A DNA stretch of 64,000 nucleotides, from NCBI RefSeq assembly GCF_023614235.1, contig NZ_CP094264.1:3534001-3598000 (forward strand). The letters are read 5' to 3'. This DNA comes from Streptomyces sp. MRC013. GTDB lineage: Bacteria; Actinomycetota; Actinomycetes; Streptomycetales; Streptomycetaceae. Below are positions 26,549 to 36,108 of the stretch, piece after piece; the first letter of the stretch is position 1, and each line of letters opens with the position of its first letter. The notes under the pieces were generated by a model, which was not told the origin of the DNA, made no database searches, and saw only the letters and a program-made list of their open reading frames with translations. The translations under genes and the position numbers were made by a program.

Positions 26549-28297
26549 TCAGGTCCCCTCCGCACCGACGCGGATCATGTCGGCGATGCGTTCCGGGACG
26601 ACCGCCCGCGAGTACCACCAGCCCTGGCCCGTGTCGCAGCCGATCCTCCGCAGGCGGTCCGCCTGCCCGGCGGTCTCCACGCACTCCGCCGTCACCGTCA
26701 GCCCCAGCCGGTGCGCCAGGTCCACCATCGCCTCGACGATCACCTCGTCGGCCGGGTTGGGGGGCGTCTCCTCCTGGAACCCGCGGACGAAGGACCCGTC
26801 GAGCTTCAGCACCGACACGGGCAGCCGGCTCAGGTACGCGAGGTTCGAGTAGCCGGTGCCGAAGTCGTCGATGGCGATCCGCACCCCCATCTCACTGAGG
26901 GCCTGCAGGGCCCGCAGGGGGCGCCCGGCCGAGCCCATCACCGCCGACTCGGTGAGCTCCAGTTGCAGTAGCCCCGGCGCCAGCCCGGTCTCGTCGAGGA
27001 TCTGCGCGACGTCCGCGACCAGGTCGGAGTCCCACACCTGGCGCACGGCGACGTTGACGCTGACGAAGAGGGGCCGCGTGCCCAGGTGGTCGGTCTGCCA
27101 GCGGCGGGCCTGCCTGCACGCGGTCCGCAGGACCCACCGGCCCAGCTGCACGATGGAGCCGTCCTCCTCGGCGATCCCGATGAACCGATTCGGCGCCAGC
27201 GGGCCGAACCGGGGGTGGTTCCAGCGGACCAGTGCCTCGACGCCGCGCACCGTCCCGTCCGCCATGCCCACCAGCGGCTGGTACTCCAGCGTGAACTCGC
27301 CCCGCTCGACGGCGGGACGGAGCGTGGAGCTGAGCGCCTGCCGGGTCATGCGGTGGGCGTTGCGCTCGGGGTCGAACAGCGTCCAGCGGGCCCTGCCGTC
27401 CTCCTTCGCCCAGTACTGCGTGGTCTCGGCGGCCTGCATCAGGCCGTTGACCGTGGTGCCCGCCGCGAGCCGCTCGACGACGCCGATGGACGCGGACAGC
27501 GACAGCCGCTGCCCGGCCAGGTCGAACGGCCGCTGCACGCAGGCGAGGACGGCTTCGGCGAGGTCCGTGAGCTGCTCCGTACCGGTCGAGTCCTCGACGA
27601 GGATCGCGAACTCGTCGCCGCCGAGCCGCGCCACGAGGTGCTCGCCCCCGTGCGTGTCCGCGTCCCTCTCGGTGCACTCGGTGAGCCGGGCGGCGACGGC
27701 GGCGAGCAGCTGGTCCCCGATGCGGTGGCCGAGCGTGTCGTTGACGGCCTTGAAGCCGTCCAGGTCCAGGTAGCACAGGCCGATCCGGCCCGTCCCGCCG
27801 CCGCCGTCGTCGTGTGCGTCGTGGAAGTCGTACGACGCGTTCTCCAGCGCGGAGGTGAGGCGCTCGAAGAACAGGGCCCGGTTGGGCAGCCGGGTCACCG
27901 GATCGTGCATCTGGAGGTGGCGCAGCCGGGCCCGGAGGTCGCGGTGGGCGCTGACGTCGGCGACCGACAGCAGCAGGTGCCGGCTGCGGGGGACGGGCAC
28001 GACCGTGACCTCCGCCCACAGGGACCGCCCGTCGGGCCGCTTGACGCGGCGCGTGCAGCGGAAGTGGGGGCGGTGGCCGCGCAGCACCTCGCGGTAGGCC
28101 TGCCCGGAGCGGCTGTCGGCGGTCAGGTCGACGAGGTCCGCGGCGACCCGGCGGCGCAGGGACGCGGCGTCCGCGCCGACCAGGGCGGCCAGCCCGTCGT
28201 TCGCGCTGACCACCAGGCCGTCGGCGTCGACGACGGCCATGGGGAGCTGCGCGGCGTTGAACGCCGCGTGGACGTCGCGCAGCTCCGCCGCGGACAC
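26549..28297 (-). CDS. PAS-GGDEF-EAL c-di-GMP turnover protein
   Basis: Cytoplasmic, 582 aa: PAS (about 1-120), GGDEF (125-310) and EAL (320-570). GGDEF is intact (RLGGDEF, 226-230) with no RxxD inhibitory site just upstream. The EAL domain keeps EALVRWNHP (354-356), the Asn of VSVNVAVRQ, Glu of LELTES, DDFGTGYSNL, Lys of LKLDGSFV and AECVET, so both cyclase and phosphodiesterase activity are plausible. Streptomyces use such enzymes to control BldD and development. The GTG at 28297 is the only start codon before the upstream stop, and it has a poor ribosome site. Divergent from the M6 protease. Resembles CdgA/CdgF types; orthology not settled. Confidence 0.92.
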   Translation of the reverse strand: MSAAELRDVHAAFNAAQLPMAVVDADGLVVSANDGLAALVGADAASLRRRVAADLVDLTADSRSGQAYREVLRGHRPHFRCTRRVKRPDGRSLWAEVTVVPVPRSRHLLLSVADVSAHRDLRARLRHLQMHDPVTRLPNRALFFERLTSALENASYDFHDAHDDGGGGTGRIGLCYLDLDGFKAVNDTLGHRIGDQLLAAVAARLTECTERDADTHGGEHLVARLGGDEFAILVEDSTGTEQLTDLAEAVLACVQRPFDLAGQRLSLSASIGVVERLAAGTTVNGLMQAAETTQYWAKEDGRARWTLFDPERNAHRMTRQALSSTLRPAVERGEFTLEYQPLVGMADGTVRGVEALVRWNHPRFGPLAPNRFIGIAEEDGSIVQLGRWVLRTACRQARRWQTDHLGTRPLFVSVNVAVRQVWDSDLVADVAQILDETGLAPGLLQLELTESAVMGSAGRPLRALQALSEMGVRIAIDDFGTGYSNLAYLSRLPVSVLKLDGSFVRGFQEETPPNPADEVIVEAMVDLAHRLGLTVTAECVETAGQADRLRRIGCDTGQGWWYSRAVVPERIADMIRVGAEGT

Positions 28298-28811: not shown

Positions 28812-30017
28812 GTGCACCGGCCGGGCCCGCGCTCCGTGGCCGCGGGGGTGTTCTCCCTCGTCGCGATCGCCGCCACGGGCCTCGCCGCGGGCCCCGCCGC
28901 GGCCGACCACCCCGCGGGGCCGTGCGCCCTGCCCCGCACCGGGGCGCACCACTCCCTCGGACTGGACACCTGGAACGCGGCCTACCCGAAACCCGAGCGG
29001 GCGCTCGACGCGGTCATGGTCTTCCTGTCGTTCCCGGACGCGGTGCCCGCGCACACGACGCGGACGATCACCGCCGACTACGTCCCCGCCACCGGCGAGT
29101 TCTTCGAACGGGCCTCGTACGGGCGGTTCACGCTGCGCGTCCACCCGCACCACGGCTGGCTGCGGATGCCCCGCCCGTCCACGGAGTACGAGGTGCGCCG
29201 GGACTGGGCGGGCGACCGGCGGGCCGCCTACCTGCGGGACGCGCTGGCCGTGGCGGACCCGGTCGTCGACTTCTCGCGGTACGACATCGTCTACCTGGTC
29301 GCGGACCCGGACGCGCCGGGCGTCGACTCGGACGCGACGAAGGTCGTGAACCTCCACACCCCGCTGCGGGCCGACGGCACCGACATCGACCGGATGGTGA
29401 CCCTGTTCGAACGGCACCCGCCGGACCGCAACGTGCTGGCCCACGAGACGGGCCACGTCTTCGACCTCCCCGACCTGTACAACCGGCCCGTGGACGGCAA
29501 GGGCGACTGGGACACCCACGTGGGCGACTGGGACGTCATGGGCAGCCAGTTCGCGCTCGCCCCGGAGCCCTTCGGCTGGCACAAGTGGAAGCTGGGCTGG
29601 CTCGGCGGCCACCAGGTGCGCTGCGTGCGGGAGCCGCAGCCGGTGACCCTCCGGCCGCTGGCGGCGGAGGGCGGCGGCCCCGCCGCGCCGGGCACCCGCC
29701 TGGCGGTGGTCCGCACCGGCACGGGCAGCGCCCTCGCGGTCGAGGCGCGCGGGGCGGCCGGCAACGACCGGGACACCTGCACGGAGGGCGTGCTGGTCTA
29801 CCGGGTGCGCAGCGCGACGGAGTCGGGCGCGGGACCCGTGGAGGTGGTGGACGCCCACCCGCTGACGGAGGCGTGCCGCGGCCGCTCCGTGTATCCGCCG
29901 CTCGCGGACGCGCCGCTGGCGGAGGGGGAGGCGCTCACCGTGCCGGGGGAGGGCACCCGGGTGGAGGTCCTGGGCCGCACGGCGGCGGGCGCCTGGCGGG
30001 TGAGGATCACTCCGTGA
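28812..30017 (+). CDS. Secreted M6 family metalloprotease-domain protein
   Basis: Exported zinc protease-like protein of 401 aa. The signal peptide is VAAGVFSLVAIAATGLAAGP to about residue 31. The M6 (immune inhibitor A-like) signature is complete: HETGH (211-215) with Asp221 as third ligand, followed by DWDVMGSQFA, the usual Met-turn region of the family. A beta-rich tail follows (VTLRPLAAEGGG; LVYRVRSATESG). No repeats or PKD domains. The GTG at 28812 has GGGGA only two bases away, so the start is uncertain; a GTG at about 28836 is an alternative. Followed by a hairpin and tRNA-Lys copy 3. Confidence 0.88.
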   Translation: MHRPGPRSVAAGVFSLVAIAATGLAAGPAAADHPAGPCALPRTGAHHSLGLDTWNAAYPKPERALDAVMVFLSFPDAVPAHTTRTITADYVPATGEFFERASYGRFTLRVHPHHGWLRMPRPSTEYEVRRDWAGDRRAAYLRDALAVADPVVDFSRYDIVYLVADPDAPGVDSDATKVVNLHTPLRADGTDIDRMVTLFERHPPDRNVLAHETGHVFDLPDLYNRPVDGKGDWDTHVGDWDVMGSQFALAPEPFGWHKWKLGWLGGHQVRCVREPQPVTLRPLAAEGGGPAAPGTRLAVVRTGTGSALAVEARGAAGNDRDTCTEGVLVYRVRSATESGAGPVEVVDAHPLTEACRGRSVYPPLADAPLAEGEALTVPGEGTRVEVLGRTAAGAWRVRITP

Positions 30018-31928: not shown

Positions 31929-33266
31929 TCAGGGGCGCAGGCGGACGCGGTGCTCCGACAGGTGCGAGAGGACCGCGTGGTTCGCCTCCCAGCCGTCCGG
32001 GAACCTGACCGTCACCCCCAGCTGGACCGGTTCCGTCGACGGGTGCTCGTCCAGCAGGTCCGCGACGCCCTCGCGGCAGACCACCACGCACGCGTGGCGG
32101 TGGCGGGACACCAGGACGCACAGCCGGCCCGTCTCCAGGTGGAACGCCGTCGCGTCGGGGCGGCCCGACAGGGGGTGCAGGACGACCGTCACGTCGTACT
32201 CGCGGCCCTGCAGCCGGTTCGCCGTGTCGACCGTCACGCCGGGGACCCCCAGGTCGGCGAGGGCCGCGCGGACGGCGGCCGCCTGGTCGCGGTGGGCGGT
32301 GCCGACCGCGACGCGGTCCGCCGTGACGGGCACGGGGTGCCCGGCGCGTTCGCTGACGGCCGCCGCGCCCCGGTCCAGCAGGCGCCGTACCACCAGCGCG
32401 CACGCCCGGACGGCCTCCGGGTCCGTGCGCGGCGTGTGGCGGGCCGGCAGCTCCAGCAGGCCCCAGCCGGACTCCGCCGCCTCGTCCAGCACCCGGTCGG
32501 CCGCCGAGCCGTCCGACGCCGCGCCGAACGCCAGCCGCCGGTCGCCGGGGCCGGTGCCCGCGCGGAACGGCGTGTACGGGTAGAACGCCTCCGACACGAG
32601 CGGCGCCGCCGAGGCGGGCAGCCGCCACGACACCGGCAACCGGTGCTGGGGCAGCTCCGGGTTGTGCGCCAGCAGCGTCGACACGGCGCTCGCCGACGGG
32701 TCGTACGACAGGCCCGCCCACTGCTCGGCGCCCACCACCGAGAACGGGTCCAGCTGCCCCGGGTCGCCCACGAACAGCGCCCGTTCGAACAACCCCGCCA
32801 CCGCCAGCAGCGCGTCCGACCGCATCTGGTACGCCTCGTCGACGATGGCGTGCCGCCACGGCCCGACGCCCTTCACGTGCGCCCACTTCGCCGCGGTGGA
32901 GACGACCACCGGCAGTCCGGCCAGGTCCGCCGCCTTCGCCGACTTCACGACCTGGTCCAGCCCGTCCAGCGCCTTGTCGTACGCGTCCGCGTCGCTCGCG
33001 TGCAGCCGCCCCACGGGCAGCTCGGGCTCCTTCTCGGCGATCCGCAGCACCAGGTCGTCGACCTGCGCGTTCGTCTGCGCGACCACCATCAGGGGGCGGC
33101 CCGCGGCGGCCAGCTCCAGCGCGGCGCGCACCACCAGCGTCGACTTGCCCGCACCGGGCGGAGAGTCCACGACGACGCCCCGCGCGCCCCCGCGGAGGGT
33201 GTCCTCCAGGATGGAGCGGGTCGCCGCGGCCGCCGCCGACGACGGGTCGGGCACTTCGCTTCTCAC
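31929..33266 (-). CDS. SF1 (DNA2/NAM7-like) helicase/ATPase, third gene of nuclease operon
   Basis: A 445-residue superfamily 1 helicase. Walker A SPPGAGKST (38-43 core), motif Ia VVAQTNAQVDDL, Walker B HAIVDEAYQM (DE 143-144), motif III GDPGQLDPF (167-174), motif IV-like VSWRLP, motif V TANRLQGREYDVTVV and motif VI CVLVSRHRHACVVV. This order is that of DNA2/Upf1-type enzymes that open or resolve nucleic acid using ATP. It is short, with no extra domains, so partners probably supply specificity. The GTG at 33266 overlaps the previous stop as GTGA, so translation is coupled to the 535-residue protein. Confidence 0.9.
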   Translation of the reverse strand: MRSEVPDPSSAAAAATRSILEDTLRGGARGVVVDSPPGAGKSTLVVRAALELAAAGRPLMVVAQTNAQVDDLVLRIAEKEPELPVGRLHASDADAYDKALDGLDQVVKSAKAADLAGLPVVVSTAAKWAHVKGVGPWRHAIVDEAYQMRSDALLAVAGLFERALFVGDPGQLDPFSVVGAEQWAGLSYDPSASAVSTLLAHNPELPQHRLPVSWRLPASAAPLVSEAFYPYTPFRAGTGPGDRRLAFGAASDGSAADRVLDEAAESGWGLLELPARHTPRTDPEAVRACALVVRRLLDRGAAAVSERAGHPVPVTADRVAVGTAHRDQAAAVRAALADLGVPGVTVDTANRLQGREYDVTVVLHPLSGRPDATAFHLETGRLCVLVSRHRHACVVVCREGVADLLDEHPSTEPVQLGVTVRFPDGWEANHAVLSHLSEHRVRLRP

Positions 33267-34870
33267 AGCACGTCCTCCGGGGTCACCGGGTCGGGCGCCT
33301 CCGCCGCGTCCGGGCGGGGCGGGCCGCCGTGGGTCCACGGCGTCTCCTCCGGGTCGGGCAGCTTCGGGCCCGCCCGCCGGTCGTGCTCGAACAGCGTCCA
33401 CACGGTCCGGTCGCCCACCTCCGGCACGGAGCCCTCCGCCGGCTCCCTCGACCGGCCCATCCGGTCCAGCAGCCGCAGCACCACCGTCCGGCCGCCCCCC
33501 GCGTCCCCGGCCTCCCCGTACCCGGCGAACTCCGCCGCCTGCGGACGCCCGTCCAGCGACCGGTACGCCCTCACGCCCGCGCCCAGGTGCGGCGCGTCGT
33601 CGGTCCGCACGGTCACCAGGGGGCGCGGCGACGGGCGCTTCGAATCCGTCCACGCCATCACCACCTCCACCACCTCCCCGGCGAACGCCTCGCCCGCGAG
33701 CCTCCGCCCCGCCATCACCAGCGGGTCGTCCAGCGCCTCCTGCGCCTCCAGCTGCGCCTGCGCGCTCTCCCGCGCGGCCAGTTTCCGCGCCGCCGTCACC
33801 GCGTCGTCCCGGCGCGGCTGCGGCGGCTCACCGGCCCGCACCCGGTCCCGGTGCCCGGTGAACGACCAGCGGTCCCGCGTCCAGCGGTCCGCGACGTGCC
33901 GCCCCGGCGGCAGCTCCCGCACCAGCTCCAGCGCCCGCCACACCGCGTCCCACGTCGGCCGCAGCTGCGCCAGGACCAGGCGCCTGACCTCCGCCTCCGC
34001 CCGGTGCAGCGCGTCCAGCCGCTCGTCGGCCGCCCCGCCGTCCTCCGCGGCGCCCAGCGCCTGCCGGGCCCGGTCGTACCGCTCGACGGCGGGCGCCAGC
34101 AGCCGGTTGTCGAACGCGGGGTCGGTCGCCGGGCCCGCGGGCGGGCACAGCAGCTGCCCGTCCCGGTCCCTGCCCAGCTCCGCACGGAGGGCGGCCGCCG
34201 CGCCGGACTCCCCGGCCGGGGGGTCGATCCAGGCGAGGAGCGCGCCCAGGTGCTGGTCCTCCAGGGAGGACTGGCCGGTCGCCCAGTGCCGGTTCAGCAG
34301 GTCCGTCGCCGCGACCAGCAGCGACGAGCCCGGCACCCGGGCCCGGTCCCCGTAGTGGGTCAGCCACCGGCCCAGCAGCGGCACGCGCGGCGGGGCGGGG
34401 AACGGCGCCCCCGGGTCCTCCTCGGCCGTCCGCCGGAACCGCGTGGACCGCCCCAGCAGCCGTACGTACTCGACGCCCGCGCGCCCGGGCACGACCAGCT
34501 GCGGCGCGTCCAGGCACAGCTCGACCTCGACCTTCACCTTCCTGCCGGTCTCCGGGTCGGTCTCGGACCTCTCGGCCGGCTCGACGGCGTCCGCGTACGC
34601 GTCGACGTGCGGCAGCACGGCCTCCGCCAGGTCGGCGAGGAACGCGAACCGCAGGTCCCGGTCGCGGGGCTGCGGCACGACCAGGAGCCGGGGCGCCCCG
34701 GGGTCCGTGCCGACCAGGGCGCCCAGCGGCGCGCCGGCCTCGCCGGAGGTGGTCAGCGGGACGAACACGAGCGGCCGCTCCGATACGTGGCGGTGGCGCA
34801 CGGTGGTCAGCGCGCGCGCCCGCCCGGCCTCGACCGCCTCCAGCCGCGCCAGGGTGGAGACCAGCGACAT
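33263..34870 (-). CDS. Unknown 535-residue protein, middle gene of nuclease-helicase operon
   Basis: Soluble protein with no domain I recognise. N-terminal part begins LVSTLARLEAVEAGRARALT and HVSERPLVFVPLTTSGEAG; a hydrophilic section carries SETDPETGRKVKVEVELCLD; the centre is long and helical (LRAELGRDRDGQLL; RRLVLAQLRPTWDAVWRALE; AARKLAARESAQAQLEAQEA), and the tail is beta-rich and acidic (VVEVVMAWTDSKRPSPRPLV; VWTLFEHDRRAGPKL). Starts at ATG 34870 overlapping the nuclease stop (ATGA) and ends overlapping the helicase start (GTGA), so the three products are made together. Probably a scaffold or nucleic-acid-binding subunit; inference from position. Confidence 0.8.
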   Translation of the reverse strand: MSLVSTLARLEAVEAGRARALTTVRHRHVSERPLVFVPLTTSGEAGAPLGALVGTDPGAPRLLVVPQPRDRDLRFAFLADLAEAVLPHVDAYADAVEPAERSETDPETGRKVKVEVELCLDAPQLVVPGRAGVEYVRLLGRSTRFRRTAEEDPGAPFPAPPRVPLLGRWLTHYGDRARVPGSSLLVAATDLLNRHWATGQSSLEDQHLGALLAWIDPPAGESGAAAALRAELGRDRDGQLLCPPAGPATDPAFDNRLLAPAVERYDRARQALGAAEDGGAADERLDALHRAEAEVRRLVLAQLRPTWDAVWRALELVRELPPGRHVADRWTRDRWSFTGHRDRVRAGEPPQPRRDDAVTAARKLAARESAQAQLEAQEALDDPLVMAGRRLAGEAFAGEVVEVVMAWTDSKRPSPRPLVTVRTDDAPHLGAGVRAYRSLDGRPQAAEFAGYGEAGDAGGGRTVVLRLLDRMGRSREPAEGSVPEVGDRTVWTLFEHDRRAGPKLPDPEETPWTHGGPPRPDAAEAPDPVTPEDVL

Positions 34871-36108
34871 CAGGCCGCCCCCGCCCCGGTGCGCGCGTCC
34901 GCCCCCGCGGCCTGCCCGGGCACGCCCGCGCCGCCCCGCGGTTCCGCGCCGGTCCCGGCGACCGCCTCCGCGCGCAGGGCCGCCGCGCGCCGCAGCGCCG
35001 CGACCGCCGGGTCGCCGGGGTCCCCCGCCTCGCCCCGGGCCGCCGCGAGCACGGCGCCGACCGTCGTCAGGCCGCCCAGCTCCCCGCGCACCGAACGGCC
35101 CAGGGCCTCCACCGCGCCGGCCGTGCGGGCCCGGTCGCGGCAGTGGAACGCCAGCTCGCACGCCGCCAGGCACTCCGGCGCGTACGCGTGCGGCACCGCG
35201 TCCACGGCCGCCGCCAGCTGCTCCGCCGAACACGCCGCCACGTCGAACGTCATCCCCCGCGGGACCTCCGCCGCGATGTCCTCCAAGCGGGTCAGGCGCG
35301 CCAGTTGACGGCGGGTCACCGAGAGCTGCCTGCGCACGTCGACGGGTGAGCCGGTCGGCTGGTTGGAGAAGTCCCTCGGGCAGACCAGCAGCACCGTGTG
35401 GTCCACCTCCGCCCCGTCCGTGACCGCGGCGATCCGCTCCAGCGCCAGGACGTACACCGCCGCCTGCCGGGCGGCCGCCCCGACCTTCGCCGCGTCCGCC
35501 GAACCGTCGATCACGGGAAAGGACTTGACCTCCACGACGGTCCACCGGCCGTCCGGCCGCACCACCACCGCGTCCGGCTCCAGGTACGCCGGCGAACCGG
35601 CCACCTCCAGCGCCAGCAGCGGGTGGTCGAGCAGTGTCCAGCCGCCCGCCGCCGTGGCCTCCCGCAGCGCCAGCGCCGTCCGCGCCGCCCGTCCCTCGGG
35701 ACCGGCCGCGGCCAGGTCGGGCGTGCGCACCCCGTCCGGCGCCTCCGCCCCGAGGAGCCGCAGCAGTTCGGCGCCCCCGTCGGCCTTGACCCTCGCCTCG
35801 AAGGCGTGGCCCCGCATGAAGGCGAACTGCGACTGCCCGAACCCGGACGGCGCGCCCAGCGCCGACGCGAGCCCGGTCTTGTCGACCCCCGCGCCGTCCA
35901 GCAGGGCGCGGCGGCGGCAGCCCGGGTTGGCGGCGAGGGCGGCCAGCGCGCGGGCGTCCAACGGGTGCGGTACCGCGGCGGGGCCGCGCAGTTCGGCCAG
36001 CCGGCGCCGCAGGGCCGCCCGCCGCGGGACCTCCGGCTCCTGCGGGGTCTGCCGGGTCTGCGGAGTTCGCGGAGCCGGACGCGGTCCGCTGCCCAGGGAA
36101 TCGCTCAC
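34870..36108 (-). CDS. RecB/Cas4-type PD-(D/E)XK nuclease with predicted 4Fe-4S cluster
   Basis: A 412-residue nuclease-like protein, first in a coupled operon. Visible RecB-family motifs in order: RGHAFEARV (Glu104), EPDAVVV (Pro178-Asp179), VVEVKSF (Glu193-x-Lys195) and the Q-x3-Y motif (Gln214, Tyr218). Cysteines follow the Cas4/AddB plan of one plus three: Cys64 ([10 protein letters not shown]) and Cys312, Cys316, Cys322 ([13 protein letters not shown]), suggesting a 4Fe-4S clamp. Such enzymes degrade or trim DNA ends. No cas1/cas2 or CRISPR is nearby. The GTG at 36108 has a weak ribosome site. Divergent from the histidine phosphatase gene 150 bases away. The nuclease call is strong; the biological role is open. 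Confidence 0.85.

Follow-up and report, generated by a model that had tools for sequence, protein, structure and literature searches.

Eukaryotic DNA2 holds, in one polypeptide and in this order, an iron-sulfur (Fe-S) nuclease, a barrel/stalk region and a helicase of superfamily 1B (SF1B). Bad, from Geobacillus stearothermophilus, is a fused DNA2-like enzyme that has been purified, a monomeric polypeptide of 1245 amino acids (aa) with 5'-3' helicase activity, an Fe-S cluster, nuclease activity and a central domain whose structure is given as unknown in the accessible part of its description (PMC7430649). Enzymes of the Bad type are sporadic in bacteria and in Geobacilli lie beside a type III-like methyltransferase gene, and a second class of Bad-like enzymes is found in Mycobacteria and Rhodococcus; a split form goes unmentioned in the same part of that paper (PMC7430649). 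Here we describe three adjacent genes, encoding a nuclease, a middle protein that we call mid, and a helicase, in a stretch of 64,000 nucleotides from Streptomyces sp. MRC013 (contig NZ_CP094264.1, positions 3,534,001 to 3,598,000; hereafter the window). We consider it likely that the products of this trio form a helicase-nuclease of the DNA2/Bad type spread over three polypeptides, which would process DNA ends, serving a housekeeping function here and recruited to defence islands elsewhere.

In AddAB and AdnAB, too, a nuclease of the same fold works with an SF1 motor in end resection, the helicases being UvrD-like and the nuclease lying in the same polypeptide. A phylogenomic study of Cas4 describes, in its accessible part, UvrD-Cas4 fusions and unfused pairs, and not the set of three genes seen here (PMC5704561). 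No published description of the trio was found in a searchable literature that lacks most subscription papers and all preprints. The three proteins match the parts of DNA2 in gene order, and Bad, going by its description, likewise combines a four-cysteine iron-staple RecB-family nuclease and an SF1B helicase, with an extra central domain that may have a counterpart in mid; DNA2 and Bad are each a single chain, in contrast to the three proteins of the trio.

Three overlapping genes and their predicted products

The trio lies on the minus strand of a genome assembled as a single 5.33-Mb contig, in the order nuclease, mid, helicase. The three open reading frames (ORFs) stand where the original prediction had put them, with lengths of 412, 535 and 445 aa. 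Their features are listed below in gene order.

34870..36108, minus strand: subunit 1, predicted Fe-S (iron-staple) RecB/Cas4-type PD-(D/E)XK nuclease, 412 aa
35917-35919, minus strand: C64, fourth cysteine of the predicted Fe-S cluster, in 118/118 sequences
35524..35574, minus strand: putative nuclease catalytic residues D179 and E193-x-K195 (LEPD ... VEVKSF), codons counted from 36108
35140..35172, minus strand: C-terminal cysteines C313, C317 and C323 of the predicted Fe-S cluster, in 118/118 sequences
34870..34870, minus strand: stop/start overlap of nuclease and mid, TGATG, 1 nucleotide (nt), read from the sequence
33263..34870, minus strand: subunit 2, mid, 535 aa; AlphaFold2 model with a predicted local distance difference test score (pLDDT) of 87.9 and a predicted template modelling score (pTM) of 0.85
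33881..34780, minus strand: mid residues ~31-330, moderate fold match of the predicted model to the 3'-5' exonuclease region of family B DNA polymerases
33386..33808, minus strand: mid residues ~355-495, helical stalk and beta-barrel in the predicted model
33263..33266, minus strand: start/stop overlap of mid and helicase, GTGA, 4 nt, read from the sequence
31929..33266, minus strand: subunit 3, predicted SF1B (UPF1/IGHMBP2/DNA2-like) helicase core, 445 aa, from AAA_11/AAA_12 and profile matches

The GTGA overlap is as originally proposed, and the supposed ATGA overlap of nuclease and mid at 34870 turned out to be TGATG, with a single shared nucleotide. Across the loci inspected the three genes are separate ORFs, unlike the fused DNA2 and Bad. 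An apparent fusion of nuclease and mid in one locus (L046) was rejected because a run of N separates the two genes.

For motif counts, proteins were taken from loci L001-L130, leaving out any whose gene was missing, cut or interrupted by an in-frame stop in the match; two genomes (G151 and G215) are each represented twice in this set. The nuclease counts cover 118 sequences, with L046 and the truncated L096 set aside. C64, C313, C317, C323, D179 and Y219 are conserved in 118/118, Q215 in 117/118, K195 in 116/118 and E193 in 115/118. By analogy with the RecB-family motifs, D179, E193 and K195 would be catalytic, and the cysteine pattern of Cas4, AddB and DNA2 points to an Fe-S cluster in this protein. 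The predicted fold, from a model with pLDDT below 50 at residues 1-10 and 390-412, places it with DNA nucleases, among them Cas4, RecE and Exo5, and in fold comparison residues 20-333 cover Dna2 20-412 (outer range). Subunit 1 shares the fold and the four cysteines of Cas4, both CRISPR-associated and solo, from which it differs in standing in an operon with mid and the helicase; the original prediction had noted no cas genes close by. It had no match in NCBIfam and hence lies below the curated cut-off of TIGR03491, a family to which we return below. A profile of the nuclease searched against PDB sequences retrieved two designed proteins and one weak match, all judged to be composition artefacts.

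The helicase matches the Pfam families AAA_11, AAA_30, AAA_12 and Viral_helicase1 over cut-off, and in a profile search of the PDB it ranks nearest to IGHMBP2 (3.7e-11), DNA2 (4e-10) and UPF1 (2.6e-5), sequence matches that suggest an SF1B helicase of the UPF1/DNA2 kind. The SF1 motifs noted in the original prediction hold up in the wider set: K41, D143, E144, D168, Q171 and R215 are conserved in 127/127 sequences, R388 and R390 in 125/127 and R355 in 123/127. Residues 27-185 match Dna2 642-807. The protein starts only 34 residues ahead of motif I, leaving no room there for a stalk and barrel of its own, and the matching stretch of IGHMBP2 begins at residue 205.

The missing region appears to be at the end of mid. 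Here the predicted stalk and barrel resemble, with moderate Z scores, the part that precedes the ATPase core in IGHMBP2 and Dna2; IGHMBP2 residues 10-140 align to the end of mid, and mid 325-498 covers Dna2 269-569 (outer range, overlapping that of the nuclease). Since IGHMBP2 from 205 onward fits the helicase and 10-140 fits the end of mid, the gene boundary would fall between barrel and motif I. We propose on the basis of this model that the C-terminal stalk and barrel of mid are the equivalent of the stalk/1B region ahead of motif I in SF1B helicases, and that mid is probably not a bystander to the nuclease and helicase. A family absent from the VIA lists was not counted as one of differing fold.

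The original prediction had called the second protein unrecognised, and at the level of families it stays so: mid matches no Pfam, NCBIfam or PADLOC family over cut-off, its profile has no match among PDB sequences, and nearly all of the 120 relatives listed, out of 3757 database proteins at E <= 0.001, are named 'hypothetical protein'. That description no longer fits the C-terminal part, with its predicted stalk/barrel fold. The N-terminal ~330 residues have no reported counterpart in DNA2; Bad has a central domain, and the mid model shows an additional region of ~300 residues. This region is moderately exonuclease-like in its predicted fold and lacks an acidic residue on its first strand (34-40), for which reason mid probably has no active 3'-5' exonuclease of the family B polymerase kind.

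Two observations on the helicase end of the locus stand apart from these comparisons. The last ~23 helicase codons are repeated at most ~300 nt downstream of the intact gene in three Streptomyces loci (L049 3113-3318, L099 9356-9424 and L100 9427-9495), and a longer piece lies ~1.1 kb downstream of the helicase in a fourth (L070 10346-10641).

Conservation of the three genes

The nuclease is present at E <= 0.001 in 143/150 Streptomyces genomes (in one, G400, only at 8.6e-5) and in 141 of the 147 Streptomyces genomes of >= 90% completeness. Among named genomes, the 80 top-ranking relatives of the helicase all come from Streptomyces. The 80 named Streptomyces loci share one gene order, with 75 matching all three genes and 5 running off the contig before the nuclease, an arrangement too regular to be chance; one of the 75, L096, has the nuclease end only. 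Synteny extends to a small downstream ORF in 78 loci and a histidine phosphatase in 72, several loci being cut by contig ends. In trees of mid and of the helicase, the core Streptomyces copies form one clade (100/100). The original prediction would be refuted, by its own account, if the trio proved to be a housekeeping unit that is conserved universally and has a function assigned to it: the near-universal, syntenic presence in Streptomyces goes some way towards such a unit, and no assigned function was found for it.

Beyond the genus, we searched 296 genomes drawn evenly from the class, with thresholds of E <= 1e-6 for the nuclease, E <= 1e-30 for the helicase and E <= 1e-3 for mid. All three genes occur in the identical 48/296 genomes, 27 of them in the window's genus, the only extra mid match being one weak fragment (G217). 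For each of the three, second copies turn up in one and the same set of four genomes (G101, G123, G199 and G243). Among the genomes listed as lacking mid, one is of the window's genus, G234; it lacks the nuclease too, and its helicase search gave nothing at 1e-30 and one short match at 3.3e-4. The coupling first proposed for the three genes is seen in their occurrence, and the operon itself is not obligatory. In G095 and G196, both of one other genus, the helicase lies ~36 and ~49 kb from nuclease-mid, and its retention at such distances indicates that the three genes are kept together independently of adjacency. Between nuclease-mid and the intact helicase ~49 kb off, G196 carries a broken helicase piece (G196:C4:1351866-1352255, E 2e-21, one stop); the corresponding interval of G095 gave a doubtful helicase match only (1.2e-4). 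The mirror-tree correlation over 115 loci is 0.95-0.97, which we do not take as evidence of interaction because common ancestry by itself yields high values.

Fused proteins of the family TIGR03491 (TM0106 family RecB-like nuclease), on which a literature search found no relevant paper, offer a further comparison. Their ORFs are 1105-1274 aa long (20 fetched), and in the three proteins scanned RNase_H_2 and then AAA_11/AAA_12 follow the nuclease region in one chain, with Pfam PDDEXK_1 in the nuclease region of two. Their helicase is related to subunit 3 (hhalign 99.5%, E 3.7e-23). In contrast, their nuclease and middle show no convincing relation to the trio by profile (5% and 0.3%), and hhalign with 248 mid sequences included found no relation of mid to their middle part. 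They differ from the trio in being one chain and in having a middle without detectable sequence relation to mid. A hand alignment of the first strands of mid to RNase_H_2 was tempting, had no statistical support and was not used as evidence. TIGR03491 is over cut-off in 99/296 class genomes and has no match in the window's genome. It occurs over cut-off together with the trio only in G031 and G249, where ~16 such genomes would be expected if the two were independent, a comparison that is no test because the genomes are related. Three trio genomes (G101, G153 and G163) have weak, sub-cut-off TIGR03491 matches. In families f17 and f18 taken together, the trio is present in 17 genomes, the fused protein over cut-off in 27, and both in 0.

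Other genes keep company with the trio in the window. A 401-aa peptidase-like protein at 28812-30017, which contains an HExxH-like stretch (HETGH) and matches nothing in Pfam, is kept in 68/80 Streptomyces loci, and a PAS-GGDEF-EAL protein at 26549-28297 accompanies the trio in 67/80. GGDEF-EAL genes are also close to nuclease-mid in L113 and L114.

Accessory copies and their neighbours

A fourth gene (gene 4) lies directly upstream of the nuclease in second copies from Streptomyces and in loci belonging to families f17, f4 and f46. Its product, ~250-290 aa long, has a coiled-coil-like beginning and matches no family above threshold, and nearly all of the 120 relatives listed, from 2656 database proteins, are again 'hypothetical protein'. 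In the class draw gene 4 is found in 15/296 genomes, in 13 of them immediately next to a copy of the trio. The match at G087:C44:290877-291500 (7.5e-32), in which no trio was found, is a partial one, and a short match in G269 (1.6e-11) lies away from that genome's trio. Gene 4 was not found in the window's genome and occurs in 14/150 Streptomyces genomes, at 16 places.

Accessory loci were located through gene 4, through second copies in the class draw or through plasmid matches; since gene 4 led to most of the Streptomyces copies, accessory copies lacking it may have been missed. The set of 18 Streptomyces accessory loci holds 14 loci (one per gene-4 genome), those of G199 and G243, and two plasmids, with the second places in G343 and G417 excluded. 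In all 18, either SbcCD (13) or pPIWI-RE-system genes (5) lie divergently upstream of gene 4. SbcCD is in pieces in the WAC00288 plasmid, and L202 shows only part of SbcD. The pPIWI-RE-system genes covered, which do not include PIWI itself, are PprPDDEXK-PprRE-PprDinG, divergent beside the accessory set in L199, L200, L209 (= L197), L123 and L124. The accessible part of the description of the pPIWI-RE triad does not give the trio as a neighbour (PMC3702460).

Wadjet genes lie directly downstream of the accessory helicase in 5/18, of type I in L194, L195 and L201 and of type II in L202 and L208. The fullest arrangement is seen on two Streptomyces plasmids (L194 6093-22426, NZ_CP108489.1; L195 1-14021, NZ_CP027023.1), with SbcC-SbcD, then gene 4-nuclease-mid-helicase and then JetA-B-C-D; here JetA to JetD of type I Wadjet follow ~150 bp after the accessory set on the same strand, and SbcCD is in pieces in L195.

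These neighbours are those of the Streptomyces accessory copies. Only one of eight gene-4 loci from other families has them, that of G249 (L126), with SbcCD and Wadjet II; SbcCD, Wadjet and Ppr are absent within the 14 kb stretches of L111, L116, L119, L120, L121, L129 and L130. SbcCD, Wadjet and Ppr had no match in 15 other-family loci altogether, these seven and 8 further ones. PADLOC, applied at E <= 1e-5 to six neighbours of other-family chromosomal loci, gave nothing but a subtilase in L120. With tblastn at E <= 1e-8, SbcC, SbcD, JetA-D, Ppr and other neighbour proteins had no match in the window or in the 80 core Streptomyces loci, some of which are cut by contig ends. SbcCD, Wadjet and pPIWI-RE are separate systems from the trio and, in Streptomyces, are neighbours of the accessory four-gene version.

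Several accessory copies sit near replicon ends. Gene 4 is ~24 kb from both chromosome ends in two genomes, at G343:C1:24151 and 10652172 and at G417:C1:24346 and 8507423, mirrored as in terminal repeats; it is 4.7 kb from the end in G383 (G383:C1:4730) and ~11-16 kb from the end of the linear NBC_01244 plasmid. Others are away from ends, in G304 (2.9 of 9.4 Mb), G330 (1.55 Mb into a 4.5-Mb contig) and G398 (0.5 Mb from the end). The accessory Streptomyces rows in the mid and helicase trees (4 and 3) sit in two places, consistent with two separate gains, a reading weakened by long branches.

Further genes adjoin particular loci. A DEAD/DEAH helicase with helicase-associated (HA) domains (Pfam, L128 protein) stands directly after the accessory helicase in two Streptomyces genomes, at L127 (2672-5584) and L128 (8910-11150), and in two f17 loci a gene for an MmyB-like XRE regulator (MLTR_LBD, HTH_31) is at the helicase end of the operon (L111 3301-4374, L130 4273-5223).

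Proposed mechanism and other readings

From the gene set, motifs, predicted folds, co-occurrence and neighbourhoods we infer the assembly, polarity, substrate and biological role of the trio as follows. The three polypeptides would assemble into one enzyme, with subunit 1 as its Fe-S nuclease and subunit 3 as an SF1B motor that is powered by ATP and should travel along single-stranded DNA in the 5' to 3' direction. Subunit 2 would supply the missing stalk and 1B barrel together with a large N-terminal domain, and in this way bridge motor and nuclease. The enzyme would load at a single-strand/double-strand junction or a free 5' end, unwind, and cut the threaded strand as the motor hands single-stranded DNA to the nuclease, amounting to DNA-end or flap processing. 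The moderate scores of the fold matches of mid weigh against this assembly. For the Streptomyces core copy, being near-universal and syntenic, the probable role is DNA maintenance beside AdnAB.

The accessory four-gene version would probably degrade or resect DNA ends made or found by SbcCD, pPIWI-RE and Wadjet. In eukaryotes, DNA2 partners Mre11-Rad50 in end resection. Sensing and processing DNA ends is the task of the Rad50 complex, which in bacteria is SbcCD, and Wadjet cuts circular, not linear, DNA (PMC10586767). Together with the eukaryotic partnership, these properties make a division of labour plausible in which one system cuts, another finds the end and the accessory version degrades. 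A more tentative idea, which we put forward with some reserve, is that split DNA2 exists in Actinobacteria in two forms: a core maintenance enzyme in Streptomyces and its relatives, and a mobile four-gene cassette that with SbcCD would be a bacterial counterpart of Mre11-Rad50/DNA2, destroying DNA cut by Wadjet or pPIWI-RE.

The original prediction had offered an anti-phage role, and the whole family, Streptomyces core copy included, could itself be an anti-phage or anti-plasmid defence system. The Streptomyces accessory relatives, all 18 adjoining SbcCD or pPIWI-RE-system genes and some Wadjet I or Wadjet II, speak for this, as do weak PADLOC matches of the helicase to the Mokosh subunits MkoC (7.9e-10) and MkoA (2.9e-7). 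The best NCBIfam match of the helicase is to the PLuB system, far below cut-off; 18/19 A3 members match PLuB, and no paper on that system was found. We nevertheless think defence unlikely for the core copy. The window locus has no SbcCD, Wadjet or Ppr by tblastn, and a nuclease in 143/150 Streptomyces genomes, syntenic and without such neighbours, is unlike typical patchy defence genes. Moreover, mid has no match in phage records, and of 62 stretches of IMG/VR contigs that fit its pattern none was confirmed, in a scan limited to that pattern.

RNA or RNA-DNA hybrids are the substrates of UPF1, Senataxin and Sen1, and the latter two are among the fold matches of the mid barrel. This favours a helicase-nuclease directed at RNA or R-loops, clearing R-loops or transcripts with the N-terminal domain of mid gripping hybrids. 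The 5/18 Streptomyces accessory copies paired with pPIWI-RE-system genes add to it, that system having been proposed to act on RNA-DNA hybrids (PMC3702460). Against it, the nuclease has the fold of DNA nucleases, and the commoner partner of the accessory copies, SbcCD (13/18), is a DNA-end enzyme, so that we give this reading a poor chance.

Slimmer still are the prospects of the compact AddAB-like assembly of the original prediction, in which an AddAB/AdnAB-like end-resection enzyme would have mid as an unrelated adaptor. The fold of the nuclease and an SF1 motor are common ground. However, the helicase is UPF1/IGHMBP2/DNA2-like and not of the UvrD-like SF1A kind of AddAB and AdnAB, the Pfam family UvrD_C_2 being found only sub-threshold, which makes DNA2/Bad the nearer model; and AdnAB is already the main helicase-nuclease activity in Streptomyces (PMC5869714). 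That the nuclease, as a solo Cas4-like enzyme, and the helicase have separate tasks and share only their regulation through operon inheritance would suit the moderate fold matches of mid and is the least credible account, given the all-or-none occurrence in 48 genomes, duplicates included, the survival of the complete set in genomes whose helicase stands 36 and 49 kb off, and a helicase without a stalk and barrel, which seem to be present in mid instead.

If the DNA2/Bad-type reading is true, a near-universal unnamed Streptomyces operon encodes a key eukaryotic repair enzyme in a version with three subunits, and motor, barrel and nuclease could each be removed singly in a bacterium that is tractable to genetics. 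Two protein families, those of mid and gene 4, whose listed members are nearly all 'hypothetical protein', would gain a meaning as well. The accessory cassettes would then point to a trade in DNA-end resection modules between defence systems, and could account for the fate of plasmids after their linearisation by Wadjet.

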